Shown here piece by piece: positions 10,226 through 17,491 of a stretch of 60,262 nucleotides of DNA. Position 1 is the first letter of the stretch, and each line of letters begins with the position of its first letter. Source of the stretch: Candidatus Rokuibacteriota bacterium (GTDB taxonomy: Bacteria > Methylomirabilota > Methylomirabilia > Rokubacteriales > CSP1-6); NCBI GenBank assembly GCA_003221515.1, contig QHSI01000099.1, positions 1-60,262 on the forward strand, written 5' to 3'. Both the position numbers and the translations under genes were made by a program. Under the pieces are notes generated by a model. The model saw only the letters and a program-made list of their open reading frames with translations. It did not search any database and had not been told where the DNA came from.

Positions 10226-11782
10226 CTACGGCTTCTTCAGCCGCATGTCCTCGTACGGCGACGTGAAGTAGAGCTGCGAGCTCAGCCCGACGCCCGGCTC
10301 TTCGACGCGCGGTCCGATCCCGTGCAGCGTCGCCGGCTCGAAAATGCCGCCGTACATGACGCGGTCGTACATCAGCCGCTGGATCTGGTGCAGCAGCACC
10401 TCGCGCTTCTTGTGGTCGCGCTCCTGCCCCTGCTGCCGGAACAGGTCGTCGATGTCGGGATAGCCGCCAGTGGCGAATGGCGCGGTGCTGATCACGAACG
10501 ACTCGATCCGCGACGCGGCGTTGCCCGGCGCCGCGGTGACCGTCACCAGCAGGCCCGACAGCTTCTTCGTCCGCCACGCCTCCATGAACGTCGCGCGCTC
10601 CATGCCGCGGATGCGGGTGCGAATGCCGACCGCGGCGAGATAGTTCGCGGCACCCTCGCCCATCGTGATGAACGGCGGGAGCGGCGTGAGGTCGCCGGCG
10701 TCGAAGCCGTTCGGGTAGCCGGCTTCCGCCAGGAGGCGCTTGGCGTGCGTGGGGTCGTAGGGATAGGGCTCGAGGCGCAGCGCGAAGTCCATGACGCTCG
10801 GGATGATCGATCCGGTCAGCCGCGAGTACCCGAGCCGCTCGGCCTCGTTGAGCCCCTGCTTGTCGATCGCCGTCGTCGCGGCCAGCCGCACCCGGCGATC
10901 GTGCCACGGCGATTTGGGATTCCACTGATCGGGAAAGTCGAGCCACCACGCCGCCGGCGAGATCACGCGGGCCAGCCGGAGCTTCGGATCCGCCTTGATC
11001 GTGGCCGCTTCGACGCCGACCATCAGGTAGCCGATGTCCGCCTCGCCGGTCTTCAACATCGCGAGCCGCGTCGTGCGATCGGGGACGCCCTTGAACACCA
11101 GGGTCTTGATCGTCGGCTTCTTGCGCCAGTACTGCTCGTTGGCCTCGAGCACGAGCTCGAGCCCCGGGCTCTGCCGCACGAACCGATAGGGTCCGAGGCC
11201 CACGGGCTGGCGCTTGAAGCCGTCCTCGCCGACTTTCTCGAGGTATTTCTTGGAGACGACCCAGGCGGCGCCGGTGGCGGGGCTGGCGTAGAACACCAGG
11301 AAGTCCGGCCACGGCTTGTCGAGCACGAAGCGGATCCGGTACGGATCGGGGATCTCGATCGCCTTCACCCGATCGTGCAGGAGCTTCGCCGACGCGCCTT
11401 TGTAACGCACGAAGCTGAACTTCACGTCCTCGGCGGTGAACGGATCGCCGTTGTGGAATTTGAGCCCCTGGCGCAGCTTGAACTCCCAGGTGAGCCCGTC
11501 CGCGCTCTCCTTCCATGACTCGGCCAGGCACGGCGCCATGTCGTTGCCGGGCAGCGGCTTGATCAACGCGTCGTGCATCGCGTAGAGGAAGGCGAAGGGC
11601 GTGCCGATCCCGGGCGTCTCGGCGGGATCCAGGAACGTGGGGGCGATGGACGCATCGAAGGCGATCGTCAGCTGCCCTTCCGGCTGGCCTTGCGCGCCGG
11701 CCGTTCCCCTCAGCATCGCCGCGACGGCGAGAGAGGCGAGCGCGATCACCCTCGCGAGCTCGCGCACAGCGGGTCTCCTCAT
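10226..11782 (-). CDS. ABC transporter substrate-binding protein, peptide/nickel family 5
   Basis: This 518-residue SBP_bac_5 protein begins at the ATG that overlaps the upstream glycosylase stop (ATGA, 11779-11782). Residues 1-31 form a signal peptide ([20 protein letters not shown]). The mature part has the family landmarks: an early LDPAETPG stretch, [20 protein letters not shown], and [20 protein letters not shown]. It is expected to capture oligopeptides or other organic ligands in the periplasm. No permease or ATPase gene is adjacent, so it must serve a transporter encoded elsewhere. It is only distantly similar to the three solute-binding proteins at 27029-32033. Coupling to dapL 17 bases downstream and to a DNA glycosylase upstream looks like simple gene packing. 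Confidence 0.92.
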
Positions 11783-12393
11783 TTTTTTCGGGCGTCGTTC
11801 GCCGCGCGCCACAAATACCAGGCGGCCGTCGAGCGGTGGGGCTTCCAGCGCTCGCCGTAGGCGCGCAGGATCTTCGGCGACGGACGGAGGCGTCGCCCGT
11901 AGGCGACCCGATAGCCTTCACGCACGCCGAAATCGTCGACGGGCAGCACGTCGGGCCGCCCGAGGGTGAAGATCAGCAGCATCTCGACGGTCCAGCGGCC
12001 GACGCCGTAGATCGGCGTCAACCGCGCGATGATCTCCTCGTCACTCAGGCGCAGCGCGGCGCGCCGCGTGGGTACCGTGCCCTTGAGCGCGTGCCGCGCG
12101 ATGTCCTTGATCGCCTTCACCTTGCCCCGCGAGAACCCGGCCAGCCGCAGCCGGGCCGGACTCGCGGCGGCGACGGCGGCCGGCGACGGAAAGCGTCCGT
12201 TACCGAAGAGGCCCACGAAGCGGGTCAGGATCGTCTCGGCGGCGCGGCCGTTCAGCTGCTGGTGGGCGATGGCGCGAGTGAGCGCCTCGTACGGTGTCCA
12301 AGAGAGCGCTTCGAGACGGTAGACGCCGTGACGGCGGATCAGGCGACGCATCACGGGGTCACGCCCGAGATGGCGCCGCGCGCCCGCGGTCAC
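11779..12393 (-). CDS. DNA-3-methyladenine glycosylase II (AlkA-type HhH-GPD)
   Basis: This 204-residue protein has the helix-hairpin-helix GPD fold of base-excision repair glycosylases. The hairpin is at about 125-145 ([18 protein letters not shown]), and the catalytic aspartate should be Asp154 in LPVDDFG, by analogy with AlkA. The N-terminal half ([20 protein letters not shown]) is the substrate-binding helix set. It lacks the N-terminal TBP-like domain of E. coli AlkA, as in many short bacterial homologues, and has no iron-sulfur cysteines. It would excise alkylated purines from DNA. The start is GTG at 12393. The stop overlaps the following solute-binding protein gene. Confidence 0.9.
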
Positions 12394-12442: not shown

Positions 12443-12637
12443 TCAAGCGTGAAGTTTCAGATGCCGCTCCCAGCGCACGCCGCAGCCGCCGCACACCATC
12501 CACGCCACCGCCCACGCCGCGTCGCGCTGCTCCGCCTCGACGATGGCGGCGGCGAGCGCGGCGCAGCCGCGGTGCTCGGCGAAGTACGCCTCGAAGCTAT
12601 CGACGAGGTCGGTGAGGACGTAGACGCGCTGTCTCAT
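12443..12637 (-). CDS. small hypothetical protein with CxxC-type motif, 64 residues
   Basis: A short gene starting at ATG 12637, which overlaps the stop of the preceding gene (ATGA, 12634-12637). It encodes 64 residues with a CGGCGVRW motif near the C terminus and two Trp residues in the preceding helix (WAVAWMVCGG). The cysteines could bind a metal or form a disulfide, but I cannot assign a family. Translational coupling to the upstream secreted protein gene is the main support that it is real. Confidence 0.5.
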   Translation of the reverse strand: MRQRVYVLTDLVDSFEAYFAEHRGCAALAAAIVEAEQRDAAWAVAWMVCGGCGVRWERHLKLHA

Positions 12638-13044
12638 GGCAGCTGCCGTTCGTTGACCGGCGGGCGCGTGCCGGCGGGGAAGTCGACGGTGCCACCCTCG
12701 CGGGTGCGACCGGTCAGCGGCGGCGTGTAGACCTCGTGGTCGCCGAGCCGCCGCTCCCAGTGCCCGGGCACGTAGACCGGACTGTCGGTGCCCGGAACCT
12801 GGACGAAGCGATCCGGAACCCACGTCGACTCGGGCGGCCGGACCACGGGCGGGCCCACCTGGGGCACCGGGCGCGTGGTCGCGTCGTGAAGCCGGTCGAA
12901 GATCGCGCCGCTCGGCGTGGTGCCGCCCGAGGGCGACTTCATCTCGCCCAACGCGAGCCCGGGCGCGCCGATCCCGGCTGCGACCACCGCGACCACGAAC
13001 GCCGTCGACCACCGCATGACCGTGCTCCCTTTCCGTTTCGTCAT
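12634..13044 (-). CDS. small secreted protein with a WVPDRFVQVPG...VPGHWERR motif
   Basis: The 136-residue frame begins at ATG 13044; an internal ATG at 13017 would give MRWSTAFVVAVVAAGIG, a cleaner signal peptide, and may be the true start. The mature part is Pro-rich and hydrophilic, with WVPDRFVQVPGTDSPVYVPG followed by HWERR. This recalls the short Trp/Pro/Gly-rich YXWXPGHW-type repeats of some secreted proteins. No enzymatic motif is seen and no specific function can be given. It is divergent from the HtrA operon, with about 130 bases between them. Confidence 0.6.
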   Translation of the reverse strand: MTKRKGSTVMRWSTAFVVAVVAAGIGAPGLALGEMKSPSGGTTPSGAIFDRLHDATTRPVPQVGPPVVRPPESTWVPDRFVQVPGTDSPVYVPGHWERRLGDHEVYTPPLTGRTREGGTVDFPAGTRPPVNERQLP

Positions 13045-13108
13045 CGTCTCATACCTAGCGATTCGACCATCGAGCGCGCGCCGTGACGGAGCGCTGACCC
13101 TGAGAGGA

Positions 13109-13137
13109 TTTTCATGGATCTCTCATCGGCGTCTCAT
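13109..13137 (+). promoter_or_regulatory. three 7-bp direct repeats at 11-bp period, PhoB/OmpR-like operator
   Basis: Heptamers TTTTCAT (13109-13115), CTCTCAT (13120-13126) and GTCTCAT (13131-13137) are separated by exactly 4 bases, the geometry of PhoB-type boxes (CTGTCAT repeated every 11 bp). A possible -10 element TACGCT at 13148-13153 starts 10 bases after the last repeat, and the htrA ribosome site follows at about 13161. The operon encodes an OmpR/PhoB-family regulator, so autoregulation through this site is plausible. Identification is by spacing and sequence only. Confidence 0.5.
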
Positions 13138-13174
13138 CTCCCCTCGCTACGCTGGTCGGTGAAAGGAGATCGCC

Positions 13175-14536
13175 ATGACGCTACGGAATGGAACGGCGGC
13201 GGGGCTGCTCGTCGCGCTGTCGTCGATCGCGATCGTGTTCGGGCCGGGACTCGGGAGGAGCGCCTCGCTATGGACCGACGGGCCGCTGGTCGCCCAGCCG
13301 GCCGTCGCGGCGGCGTCGCCGTGGGTGGCGCTGGCGCGCGCGCTCAAGCCCGCCGTCGTCAACGTCAGCACGACGCGCGTCGACGGCAACCTGCGCCGCC
13401 ACACCGAGAAGAGCCTCGGCTCGGGCTTCGTGATCAACCCGGACGGATTCATCGTCACCAACAACCACGTCGTTGACGGCGCCAAGGACATCCGGGTGAC
13501 GCTGGCCGACGGCCGCGAGCTGCCCGCCACGGTGCTGGGTCGCGATCCCCGGACGGATCTGGTGCTCCTGAAGGTCGACGCCAAGGGCCTCCCCGTCGTT
13601 CCCCTCGGCGACTCGGCGCGGCTCGAGGTGGGCGAATCCGTCATGGCGATCGGCAACCCGTACGGTCTCGAGCAGACCGTCACGACCGGCATCATCAGCG
13701 CCAAGGGACGCGTGATCGGTGAGGGCCCGTACGACGACTTCATCCAGACCGATGCGTCGATCAATCCGGGCAACAGCGGCGGGCCACTCATCAACGCGCG
13801 CGGCCAGGCGATCGGCATCAACGCCGCGATCGTGACGCAGAGCGGCGGCTCGGTGGGGATCGGCTTCGCGATCCCGATCAACCTCGCCAAGCCGGTGCTG
13901 ACCCAGCTCGCGGCCTCCGGCCACGTGGTGCGCGGCTATCTCGGCGTCACGGTCCAGCCGGTCACCGCGGACCTGGCGAAGAGCTTCAAGCTCGGCGCGC
14001 CGCGCGGCGCCCTGGTGAGCTCCGTGGCCGACGGCTCCCCGGCGCTGAAGGCCGGCCTGAAGCCGGGCGACGTCATCGTCGCCTACGACGGCCACACGAT
14101 CACGCGCTCCGACGAATTGCCGCGCCTCGTTGCCGAGACGCCGGTGAACCGTGCGGTCGGCGTCACCCTCGCCCGCGACGGCTCGACCGCGACGGTGACG
14201 ATCACCATCGGTCAGCTCGCTGACGCCGCCGAGCGAAGGGCCACGGCCGATGCCCGGCCCACGCTGGGCCTCGCGCTCCAAACGGTGACGCCCGAGCTGG
14301 CGAAGCGCCTGCACCTGCGCGCGCAGACCGGCGTGATCGTGCGCGGCGTCGAGGAGGACAGCCCCGCCGCGAACGCCGGCCTTCAACCGGGCGACGTGAT
14401 CGGCGAGATCGATCGCCAGCCGGTTGCGAACATCGACGAGCTCGAGCGGGCGATCATCCGCCGGGTGCCGGGCACGCCGACGCTCCTCCTGGTCCACCGT
14501 GACGACGGCGACCTCTACCTCACGATGGACTCGTGA
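13175..14536 (+). CDS. HtrA/DegP-family serine protease with two PDZ domains
   Basis: This 453-residue protein has an N-terminal signal or anchor segment (residues 8-24), a trypsin-like domain with catalytic triad His98 (IVTNNHVVD), Asp128 (RTDLVLLK) and Ser201 (NPGNSGGPL), then two PDZ domains at about 245-335 (GYLGVTVQPV) and 360-450 (LGLALQTVTPELA; NAGLQPGDVI). It acts in the periplasm on misfolded envelope proteins. The start is supported by a strong AAAGGAG ribosome site. It opens an operon that includes a two-component system, a common arrangement for envelope-stress control. Three 11-bp-phased repeats upstream may be the response regulator's site. Confidence 0.95.
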   Translation: MTLRNGTAAGLLVALSSIAIVFGPGLGRSASLWTDGPLVAQPAVAAASPWVALARALKPAVVNVSTTRVDGNLRRHTEKSLGSGFVINPDGFIVTNNHVVDGAKDIRVTLADGRELPATVLGRDPRTDLVLLKVDAKGLPVVPLGDSARLEVGESVMAIGNPYGLEQTVTTGIISAKGRVIGEGPYDDFIQTDASINPGNSGGPLINARGQAIGINAAIVTQSGGSVGIGFAIPINLAKPVLTQLAASGHVVRGYLGVTVQPVTADLAKSFKLGAPRGALVSSVADGSPALKAGLKPGDVIVAYDGHTITRSDELPRLVAETPVNRAVGVTLARDGSTATVTITIGQLADAAERRATADARPTLGLALQTVTPELAKRLHLRAQTGVIVRGVEEDSPAANAGLQPGDVIGEIDRQPVANIDELERAIIRRVPGTPTLLLVHRDDGDLYLTMDS

Positions 14537-14982
14537 TGGTCTTCCAGTGGCAGCCGCTCACGCACGACGTGGGGCTCGAGGCCGGCGGCGCCGCGCCGGC
14601 CATCGGGGTCGCCCGCTGGTACCGCGACATGACGACCTGCTGGATGTCGGCCGAGCCACTCCGGCGCCGGTGTCTCGTCCTTCGCGTCCACCGCTGGATT
14701 GCCGATCGCGTGCTGATCCCGATGGCGCGGGGCGAGGAGCCCGCGGTCGCGGACCTCGACGCCGACGGCGTGCTGGCCCTGACGCTGATCAGCATGGTCC
14801 CGCCGCGGCGGCTCGGCGCGTGGCACCCCTGGATCGTCCTCACGCTCGCCGATCTCCGGCTAGCGCTCGCGCAGCCGCCGACGGTTCGCGACGAGGCGTG
14901 GGCGCGCCACTTGTTCCTCATTCCCTACAGCATTCCGCTGCGACGAGACGTCACGCGGATGGAAGGAGACACACATGCGTAA
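14536..14982 (+). CDS. hypothetical protein, 148 residues
   Basis: Starts at an ATG overlapping the htrA stop (TGATG, 14534-14538); a GTG one codon earlier is an alternative. The product is soluble-looking and Trp/Arg-rich (LAWHPWIVLTLADLRLALA-like stretch near 120, preceded by RLGAWHPW), with no signal peptide or membrane helix that I can identify. I do not recognise a family. Its end overlaps the next gene by 8 bases and it sits inside the protease/two-component operon, so a role in the same envelope response is the best contextual guess. Confidence 0.6.
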   Translation: MVFQWQPLTHDVGLEAGGAAPAIGVARWYRDMTTCWMSAEPLRRRCLVLRVHRWIADRVLIPMARGEEPAVADLDADGVLALTLISMVPPRRLGAWHPWIVLTLADLRLALAQPPTVRDEAWARHLFLIPYSIPLRRDVTRMEGDTHA

Positions 14983-15316
14983 CCATCGAGTCGTTCTGAC
15001 CACGCTGGCGCTCGGGATGGCGGTCTGGGTAGGCCAGGCCGCGGCCGACGGACCCGGTGACACCTACGGCGCCCAGAAGCTGGGCACCGTGCGGTTCCTG
15101 GATCGTGCGATGAACCTGCTGCAGCTCGACGACGGCACCGAGCTGCGCACCACGGACTCGCGGCTGCTCCGCAACCTTCGCGAGGGCATGAGGGTCAAGG
15201 TCGACTTCACTCACGACGGAGAGCGGAACGAGCTCAACAGCATCGAGGCCATCGGCGCCGGCGCCACCGTGGGCGCCACCCCGACGACGGTCGGCGGTAT
15301 CTCGAACCACAGCTGA
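14975..15316 (+). CDS. small secreted DUF1344-like protein
   Basis: This 113-residue protein has a signal peptide (LTTLALGMAVWVGQAAA) and a single small beta domain with LGTVRFLDRAMNLLQLDDGT and LREGMRVKVDF. That pattern is seen in DUF1344-type periplasmic proteins, which carry a short 'link between value and time' beta fold of unknown role. The start is preceded by GGAAGGAGAC and overlaps the previous gene's stop region. It has no catalytic residues that I can see. Membership in the HtrA/two-component operon suggests that it is a periplasmic accessory or a target of the stress response. Confidence 0.65.
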   Translation: MRNHRVVLTTLALGMAVWVGQAAADGPGDTYGAQKLGTVRFLDRAMNLLQLDDGTELRTTDSRLLRNLREGMRVKVDFTHDGERNELNSIEAIGAGATVGATPTTVGGISNHS

Positions 15317-15345: not shown

Positions 15346-15423
15346 ATGGTCGAGTGGTCGACCGAGCTCGAAGATGAGATCCTGCGCATGTGCCTCATGG
15401 AGCTCACCGAGCAGCCGGTCTGA
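15346..15423 (+). CDS. 25-residue ORF coupled to the response regulator
   Basis: A very short frame with its own ribosome site (CAGGAGAGCGCC) before ATG 15346. The peptide begins MVEWSTELEDEILRMCL and ends in TEQPV. Its TGA overlaps the ATG of the response regulator (TGATG, 15421-15425). It may be a real acidic micropeptide or a translational-coupling leader that sets regulator expression. The ribosome site and exact coupling are visible; function is unknown. Confidence 0.45.
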   Translation: MVEWSTELEDEILRMCLMELTEQPV

Positions 15424-16103
15424 TGCGCATCCTCGTGGTCGAGGACGAACGAAAGGTCGCGGGCTTCATCCGCCAGGGGTTGGCGGAGGAGGGCTACGCC
15501 GTCGAGGTCGCGTCCGACGGCGCCACCGCGCTCGACCTGCTCGTCGACGGCCCGCCGCCGGACCTGGTGGTGCTGGATCTCATGCTGCCGCGGCTCGACG
15601 GCTTCTCCCTGTTGAAGGCCGCGCGCAGCCGCGCCGTCCCGACGCCGGTCCTGGTGGTGACGGCCCGGGACGGCGTCGCCGACAAGGTGCGGGGCCTCGA
15701 CCTCGGCGCCGACGACTACCTGACGAAGCCGTTCTCGTTCGACGAGTTCCTCGCGCGCGTCCGCGCGCTGCTGCGGAGGAGCGCCGAGCGGCGCGAGCCG
15801 GTGCTGCGCGCGGGCGACCTCACCCTCGACCCGGCCACGCGCGAGGTGATCCGCGCCGGCCGCCGGATCGCGCTCACGGCTCGGGAGTACGCGCTCCTGG
15901 AGTACTTCCTGCGCAGCCGCGGCCGGGTCCTCACGCGGCCGGTGCTGGCCGAGCACGTCTGGGGCCTCGACTTCGACCCGGAGAGCAACATCATCGACGT
16001 CTACGTCGGCTACCTGCGCCGGAAGATCGACACCGCCGGCGAACGCCGGCTGCTCCACACCGTGCGCGGCGCCGGGTACGCGCTGAGGGCCGACGACCAG
16101 TGA
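15423..16103 (+). CDS. OmpR/PhoB-family response regulator
   Basis: A 226-residue DNA-binding regulator. The receiver (1-118) has the acidic patch at VVEDER, phospho-acceptor Asp52 (LVVLDLMLPRLDG) and Lys102 (YLTKPFSFDE). The winged-helix output domain spans about 128-223 (ALTAREYALLEYFLRSRGRV, then VDVYVGYLRRKI-type recognition helix and HTVRGAGYAL). The start is the ATG overlapping a 25-codon upstream ORF. It is the cognate partner of the kinase that follows with a TGATG overlap. It may control its own operon, because PhoB-like direct repeats lie upstream of htrA at 13109-13137. Confidence 0.95.
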   Translation: MRILVVEDERKVAGFIRQGLAEEGYAVEVASDGATALDLLVDGPPPDLVVLDLMLPRLDGFSLLKAARSRAVPTPVLVVTARDGVADKVRGLDLGADDYLTKPFSFDEFLARVRALLRRSAERREPVLRAGDLTLDPATREVIRAGRRIALTAREYALLEYFLRSRGRVLTRPVLAEHVWGLDFDPESNIIDVYVGYLRRKIDTAGERRLLHTVRGAGYALRADDQ

Positions 16104-17491
16104 TGCGATGGCGCGCGCCCGCGTCGATCCACACACGGCTGACGCTCTGGTACACGAGCGTGCTGCTGATCACCCTCCTGGTGACCAGCGGCTTCTCCTA
16201 CTGGCTCTTGACCCTGGCGCTGGCCCAGGACGTCGACCGCGCGCTCCTCGGCCTCGCCGAGGTCATCCGAGAGGCCGTGGCCGCCGACCGCGCCCCGGAA
16301 ACCGCCGAGGCGATCGCCGACTCCGAGTTTCGCGATCAGTTCGTGCAGGTCGTCGACGCCGGCGGCGCGCCGGCCTACCTCTCGCGGGGTCTGAAAGGTC
16401 AAACGTTGCCGCTCTCCGCGGCGGCGCGCGAGGGCGCCAGACGCGGCCGGCCGACGCTCGAGACGGTGCAGGTGGGCCGCCGGCATCTTCGTCTCGTGAC
16501 GCTCCCGGTGCTGCGCGACGGACGGCCATCGCAGCTCGTTCAGGTCGGGGTGTCGCTCTCGCGCAGTCATCGCGCGCTCGCGCGGTACGCCGAGACGCTG
16601 GTGATTCTGGTTCCGCTCGGGCTCGCGCTGGCCGCCCTGGGCGGCGCGCTCGTGGCCCGCAAGGCGCTGAAGCCGGTCGACGAGATGTCGCGCACCGCCC
16701 GGCGCATCACCGCCGAGCACCTCGCCCGCCGCCTGGAGCTTCGCGGAACCGGCGACGAGCTGGATCGGCTCGCCGAGACCCTGAACGAGATGCTGGCCCG
16801 GCTCGAGGGCGCCTTCGCGGAGATGCGGCGCTTTTCGGCGGACGCCGCCCACGAGCTGCGCACCCCGCTGACGGCGCTCAAGGGCGGGCTGGAGGTCGCG
16901 CTGCGCGCCGCGCGATCGCCTCGGGAATACCGAGAAGTCCTCGTCGCGAGGCTCGAGGAGGTCGACCGGCTCATCCAGCTGGCCGAGGATCTCCTGCTCG
17001 TCGGCCGCTCCGGGGCCGAGCCGGCGTCACGGTCGCCGGTCGATCTGGAGCAGATCGCCCTGGAGGCTCTCGACATCGGCGCGCAGCTCGCGCAGCCGCG
17101 CGGCGTCACCGTTCGCATGGAGGTCGGCGAGCCGGTGACGGTGCTCGGCGACGCGGCGGCGCTTCAGCGCGCGGTGCGCAACCTGGTGGAGAACGCGGTG
17201 AAGTTCACGCCGGCCGGGGGCCTCGTCGAGGTCAACGTCGACTCGAGGAACGCCAGCGGCGTGTTGAGCGTGCGGGACACGGGGCCCGGCATTCCGCCGG
17301 GCGACGTCGAGCGCGTGTTCGAGCCGTTCGTCCGGCTCGACGCCGCCCGCGATCGGGAAAGCGGCGGTGCGGGGCTCGGGCTCTCGATCGCCCGGTCGAT
17401 CGTGACCGCGCACGGCGGCACGCTGACCCTCGAGACGGCGCTCGGGCGCGGCTCCCGCTTCACCATTCACTTGCCGGCGGCGACGGGATAG
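16103..17491 (+). CDS. membrane sensor histidine kinase, partner of the OmpR-type regulator
   Basis: The 462-residue kinase has membrane helices at 13-40 and 163-186 flanking a periplasmic sensor of about 120 residues, and a HAMP domain at 187-240. The HisKA domain has phospho-acceptor His250 in FSADAAHELRTPLTALKGG. The ATPase domain carries NLVENAVKFTP, VRDTGPGIPP and GGAGLGLSIARSIV. Its start overlaps the regulator's stop. Co-transcription with an HtrA protease and small periplasmic proteins suggests that it monitors the cell envelope, comparable in logic, not sequence, to CpxA or CssS. The sensed signal cannot be read from the sequence. Confidence 0.95.
   Translation: MRWRAPASIHTRLTLWYTSVLLITLLVTSGFSYWLLTLALAQDVDRALLGLAEVIREAVAADRAPETAEAIADSEFRDQFVQVVDAGGAPAYLSRGLKGQTLPLSAAAREGARRGRPTLETVQVGRRHLRLVTLPVLRDGRPSQLVQVGVSLSRSHRALARYAETLVILVPLGLALAALGGALVARKALKPVDEMSRTARRITAEHLARRLELRGTGDELDRLAETLNEMLARLEGAFAEMRRFSADAAHELRTPLTALKGGLEVALRAARSPREYREVLVARLEEVDRLIQLAEDLLLVGRSGAEPASRSPVDLEQIALEALDIGAQLAQPRGVTVRMEVGEPVTVLGDAAALQRAVRNLVENAVKFTPAGGLVEVNVDSRNASGVLSVRDTGPGIPPGDVERVFEPFVRLDAARDRESGGAGLGLSIARSIVTAHGGTLTLETALGRGSRFTIHLPAATG

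Follow-up and report, generated by a model that had tools for sequence, protein, structure and literature searches.

A conserved tandem repeat as the probable operator of an htrA–two-component operon in Candidatus Rokuibacteriota

Which protein reads the three direct repeats that stand before an htrA–two-component operon of Candidatus Rokuibacteriota, and what does it do there? In the window (the whole stretch of 60,262 nucleotides analysed here), this array occupies part of the 130 bp that separate htrA from a divergent minus-strand gene (12634-13044). An earlier note had described three heptamers at 11-bp spacing with 4-bp gaps, a possible -10 element beginning 10 bases after them and, within the operon, an OmpR/PhoB-type regulator at 15423-16103. 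Direct reading bears out the letters and coordinates of the heptamers; the -10 reads TACGCT, at an offset that recurs in aligned arrays, and both the Response_reg and the Trans_reg_C domain are found in the regulator. The features of the locus are:

13101-13106, plus strand: inverted half-site TGAGAG (consensus TGAGAA), degenerate here, conserved at the same offset in aligned arrays
13109-13115, plus strand: direct half-site 1, TTTTCAT (direct reading, motif search and array alignment)
13120-13126, plus strand: direct half-site 2, CTCTCAT (same three sources)
13131-13137, plus strand: direct half-site 3, GTCTCAT (same three sources)
13148-13153, plus strand: -10 element TACGCT, 10 nt past the array (direct reading and array alignment)
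13163-13168, plus strand: ribosome-binding site AAGGAG, from the sequence
13175-14536, plus strand: htrA, a serine endopeptidase of the Do family carrying two PDZ domains (Pfam Trypsin_2 and PDZ; TIGR02037)
14533-14982, plus strand: uncharacterised protein with homologues (phmmer) behind arrays in G003, G005, G006 and G007
14975-15316, plus strand: small uncharacterised protein with a probable signal peptide (sub-threshold NCBIfam match only)
15423-16103, plus strand: OmpR/PhoB-family response regulator, proposed reader of the array (Response_reg and Trans_reg_C; nearest CusR/CopR)
16103-17491, plus strand: sensor histidine kinase of the CusS/CopS 'heavy metal' subfamily, above the TIGR01386 cut-off

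The half-sites are separated by ggat (1/2) and cggc (2/3), 4 bp each, and follow the OmpR/PhoB-family tandem-operator pattern of at least two similar 6-7 bp direct half-sites with a 10-11 bp period. Ten bases (ctcccctcgc) lie between half-site 3 and the -10, and the -35 position for a 17-bp spacer (13125-13130) reads ATCGGC, which is no consensus hexamer. The inverted half-site at 13101-13106, overlooked in the earlier note and well conserved in relatives, forms a palindrome-like unit with direct half-site 1 (TGAGAG-GA-TTTTCA). In the window copy, half-site 1 carries a single mismatch and the inverted half-site is degenerate.

Downstream, htrA begins with an ATG at 13175, and its product belongs to the Do/HtrA (DegP) family, scoring 462.4 bits against TIGR02037 (cut-off 416.2) with two PDZ stretches. 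The protein at 14533-14982 falls into no Pfam or NCBIfam family; the recurrence of its homologues behind arrays in four relatives marks it as a recurrent member of the putative regulon. Named relatives of the kinase come from Candidatus Rokuibacteriota / Methylomirabilota soil genomes. On the other side of the array, the divergent uncharacterised gene adjoins a DNA-glycosylase-like gene (11779-12393), a pairing conserved in G002 and G007.

Could such an 11-bp repeat arise by chance in G+C-rich intergenic DNA and have no function? We counted positions with a self-similarity score of at least 16 and found 18 in the 60-kb window versus a mean of 8.6 per dinucleotide-preserving shuffle of it; for the 130-bp intergenic region, 15 of 3000 shuffles reached array-level self-similarity. 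Comparable self-similarity is common in shuffled windows, and the repeat by itself is weak evidence. In G+C-rich DNA of this length (60 kb), the self-similarity statistics fall short of significance, and they are left out of the evidence. As a defined motif, in contrast, the array is not chance. TCTCAT repeated three times at 11 bp, with up to three mismatches, occurs at just two loci in the 5.1-Mb genome (reversed control pattern, 0), and with up to two mismatches it gives 38 matches in 59 relatives versus 1 control match. A profile of 31 aligned sites returned the same two strong sites from the genome (E 1.8e-10 and 2.3e-9), both of which, the window copy included, were among the 31 sequences that built it, and nothing further below E 0.08. 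Matches in the same-class genomes G038, G045 and G046 were rejected as chance: they stand at control level and have no -10 at the fixed offset. With the motif rare, its controls empty in this genome and near-empty in relatives, the array conserved upstream of htrA and its distance from the -10 fixed, a functionless repeat is already contradicted by the comparative data and its probability is negligible.

The genome-wide search for further copies of the array found one other locus:

C30:20791-20819, minus strand: perfect triple array, the second motif match in the genome

This array heads a 34-codon frame (G000:C30:20664-20819; L009, L040, L258) predicted to encode a one-helix membrane peptide, whose start reads MEDLTRF or VEDLTRF (V/MEDLTRFGLALISAPVVVVTGGVLLGLIGRWIKR) and for which we know of no annotation. 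The array precedes the 34-aa gene in four kinase-bearing species (G000, G003, G004, G006), and homologues of the gene in the kinase-less G001 and G008 are without it. From these matches the regulon here is predicted to be very small, consisting of the htrA operon and the 34-aa membrane peptide.

The 31 arrays were chosen by their three direct half-sites alone, and the flanks were examined afterwards. Their half-site consensus is TTCTCAT, with C rather than G in the majority at core position 2. The TA of TAnnnT begins exactly 10 nt after half-site 3 in 23/31 arrays; the complete TAnnnT is found at this offset in 19/31, and at other offsets 0 times or once. Before the arrays, positions -8 to -3 conserve T(G/A)AGAA, which leaves two bases to direct half-site 1, with the T of the inverted half-site kept at its fixed offset in 23, the A in 22, the G in 25 and the next A in 20 of the 31 arrays. 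This half-site is absent from the C30 site and some other arrays and is thus probably auxiliary. In a PhoB-type class II promoter the operator takes the place of the -35, at a constant spacing from the -10, and the alignment displays this layout. At one locus (G023:C48; L081 / L114), a PRC-barrel gene and a gene for a membrane protein flank a pair of opposed arrays, 14 bp from each other, that would make a divergent double promoter.

Does the array belong to htrA or to one stretch of chromosome? Larger neighbourhoods show it at the start of the transcription unit of htrA in almost every family member that has a linked regulator-kinase pair. The order is array-htrA-small genes-regulator-kinase in the window, L043, L048 and L050, and regulator-kinase-array-htrA in L049, L051, L052, L056 and L058. 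In L044 to L047 and L053 an extra gene, for a TPR protein or an iron/manganese superoxide dismutase-like protein, comes between array and htrA, and L061 likewise has the array between the pair and htrA (the regulator-kinase-array-(gene)-htrA group). Since three different gene orders are seen, the array goes with the htrA promoter and not with one fixed chromosome stretch. Compared with the closest relative, whose htrA is 88% identical, 21/21 half-site bases are unchanged and 4/8 spacer bases differ. Some g1 members (L056-L058, L060) have weaker array copies at the same -10 offset, and the related htrA genes of L054, L055 and L059 have neither array nor linked pair. The earlier note had staked its reading on conservation upstream of htrA in relatives; this conservation was found, and it tracks the linked pair. 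In one relative, G007, htrA has been lost from the syntenic place and arrays head neighbouring genes, namely a homologue of the 14533 gene, a universal stress protein, a TauE/SafE-type permease and the regulator/kinase genes:

G007:C121:64000-80000: syntenic locus (L106) with several arrays, including those before a D149-type gene and before the regulator-kinase pair

Farther away, families f8 and f9 of the class, with kinases 46-48% identical, carry the same composite before htrA (L099, L100, L101, L102, L118); their half-sites have drifted to TTCT(A/C)A(T/C), and they retain both the inverted half-site and the 10-nt spacing to the -10. An apparent covariation in these families, a recognition-helix Gly to Asn change accompanying TTCTCAT to TTCTAAT, was not pressed, as the residue corresponds to PhoP Ser219, which is not a listed base contact. 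Arrays with an inverted half-site and nAnnnT at 10 nt were also seen at G048:C180:4082-4109 and G054:C134:23539-23566 (L063, L064), where the gene behind them probably encodes a solute-binding protein and may be a second target of family f8. In a Deltaproteobacterial genome (L124) the order is regulator-kinase-array-htrA, with GTCTAAT, GTCTCAT and TCTCTTAT-type units and TAGCCT at 10 nt, and this array is its only strong profile site. Forty relatives of that genome gave no further strong match, so transfer or patchy retention of the L124 array is possible. An entry titled Klebsiella pneumoniae (L123, CAMBFS010000188.1), which looks like a mislabelled metagenome bin, encodes a kinase 43% identical to that of the window and a regulator of the L124 type. 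Alphaproteobacterial htrA-regulator-kinase loci (Bradyrhizobium, Methylocystis, Nitrobacter and others) have no comparable 11-bp triple upstream of htrA.

Array and kinase show a clear two-way pattern across the family. Taking matches over 420 bits as full-length kinase orthologues, we scored 35 family genomes and found the array in 17/17 with the orthologue versus 2/18 without it (Fisher p=4e-8) and, counted by genus, in 10/10 versus 1/14 (p 6e-6); both p-values are too small and overstate independence because the genomes are related. The two exceptions, G008 and G033, have array matches without a detected kinase orthologue, and both assemblies are fragmented.

What kind of regulator is it? 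Its best model is TIGR01387 (CusR/CopR), at 250.1 bits below the cut-off of 279.2, and against TIGR02154 (PhoB) it reaches 198.6 bits for a cut-off of 296.2. The kinase exceeds the TIGR01386 (CusS/CopS) cut-off with 298.1 bits (292.55 needed), and the operon contains no metal (copper) genes. Thus, 'PhoB-like', as the earlier note had it, is right for the geometry only, because the regulator lies far below the PhoB cut-off and nearest to the CusR/CopR heavy-metal subfamily.

The best solved-structure matches of the regulator include M. tuberculosis PhoP, whose site, TCACAGC-N4-TCACAGC, has the same 11-bp tandem geometry. The recognition helix NIIDVYVGYLRRK matches that of PhoP, NVVESYVSYLRRK, at Asn212, Tyr217 and Tyr220, which in the PhoP-DNA crystal structure read the CA step, TC and C, respectively (PMC4832192). 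The half-site TCTCATN keeps the T, C, C and A of the PhoP motif and differs at just the other positions; Val and Asp replace Ser216 and Glu215, which in PhoP face A6, G9 and C10 of TCACAGC (PMC4832192), and the regulon is another one. Judged by alignment, this agreement between helix and half-site fits the local regulator as reader of the array. PhoP binds sites of three or four repeats more tightly than sites of two, and its binding depends on the 4-bp gap (PMC4832192), which suggests a use for the third half-site.

We conclude, with a probability of about 0.86, that the array serves as operator for the response regulator of its own operon and that tandem binding activates htrA and the regulator's own genes. 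Because the repeats recur before htrA, at the same distance from the promoter core, wherever the pair is present, the array is very probably this regulator's docking site. It is improbable that another regulator of the OmpR/PhoB type, a true PhoB or a paralogue, uses the site and that the local linkage is incidental. The genome does offer many response regulators (84 matches to this one), two genomes carry arrays without a detected kinase, and the first copies of the half-site are only two bases from the PhoB CTGTCAT, or one in the core (TCTCAT/TGTCAT). However, array presence tracks the linked pair in 33/35 genomes, it has remained beside htrA and the pair where the genes were rearranged, and the paralogues of this genome with readable helices (SRTVDTHVAELRRK, AHYVRVYMAHLRHK) differ at base-reading positions. 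Less probable still is a linked regulator that represses, or a mixed switch that represses when unphosphorylated and activates when phosphorylated. Half-site 3 adjoins the core promoter and a protein bound there could block polymerase, but a promoter with ATCGGC in place of a -35 hexamer is expected to depend on activation. The constant 10-nt spacing to the -10 matches the requirement of an activator that touches sigma, and in E. coli the pho box usually takes the place of the -35 (PMC4971064).

How would the same-operon regulator work as an activator? Envelope damage, the likely signal, would activate the kinase and give phosphorylated regulator, two or three molecules of which would bind the 11-bp direct repeats cooperatively, head-to-tail, with the inverted half-site perhaps adding one more. 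Bound regulator would occupy the place of the -35 and bring RNA polymerase to the -10 that lies ten bases further on, so that htrA, both small genes and the regulator/kinase pair would be switched on. The resulting positive feedback, an envelope-stress loop, would raise periplasmic protease capacity. In species with more sites, the same regulator may also act on genes for superoxide dismutase-like, PRC-barrel, universal stress and D149-type proteins. A bolder reading, which we consider tentative and would put at less than even odds, is that the array is a composite operator in which a CusR-type palindrome (TGAGAA-NN-TTCTCA) is fused to PhoB-type tandem repeats and one regulator binds as four protomers of mixed orientation. 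It would then control an envelope-stress regulon, conserved in the uncultivated phylum and shared by one Deltaproteobacterium or more, into which superoxide dismutase-like, universal stress, PRC-barrel and tiny membrane proteins would also be drawn.

How does the system compare with known ones? The E. coli PhoB pho box shares its 7-bp direct repeats (CTGTCAT-N4), 11-bp period, nearness to the -10 and substituted -35 (PMC4415409, PMC4971064). In contrast to that box, the core here is TCTCAT and not TGTCAT, so that the CTGTCAT sequence itself is not matched; the array has three direct units and one inverted, and the putative regulator is not PhoB, nor is its target, htrA, a phosphate gene. The E. 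coli CusR/PcoR box (the pcoE palindrome), TGACAA-NN-TTGTCAT, has the geometry of TGAGAA-NN-TTCTCAT with one base changed per half (PMC11195947). The kinase passes the CusS/CopS model and the regulator is nearest CusR/CopR; unlike that system, the array here has two further direct half-sites, the regulator stays below the model cut-off and the operon is without copper genes. No relevant mention of TTCTCAT as the motif of a response regulator turned up in a literature search.

In function, the system resembles MprAB-PepD of mycobacteria, MprAB-HtrA of Corynebacterium, CssRS of Bacillus and CiaRH of Streptococcus. CpxAR-DegP of E. coli is likewise an OmpR-family regulator controlling an HtrA-type protease. 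In the four former systems an OmpR-family regulator controls a periplasmic or surface HtrA, often at a neighbouring locus (PMC3062566, PMC12113857, PMC12826053). They differ from the system here in subfamily and half-sites (C. glutamicum MprA, for example, TKTTAAGAAM), and the host here is an uncultivated phylum. By its half-site, the system appears to belong to none of them.

We know of no transcription regulation that has been worked out in this uncultivated soil phylum, and the comparison supplies for it a well-supported candidate operator, a proposed cognate regulator and a small predicted regulon. The element is compact enough for synthetic DNA and purified protein. If palindrome and tandem repeats make up one functional site, their layout would have something to say about how regulators of the OmpR family change between symmetric and head-to-tail binding.
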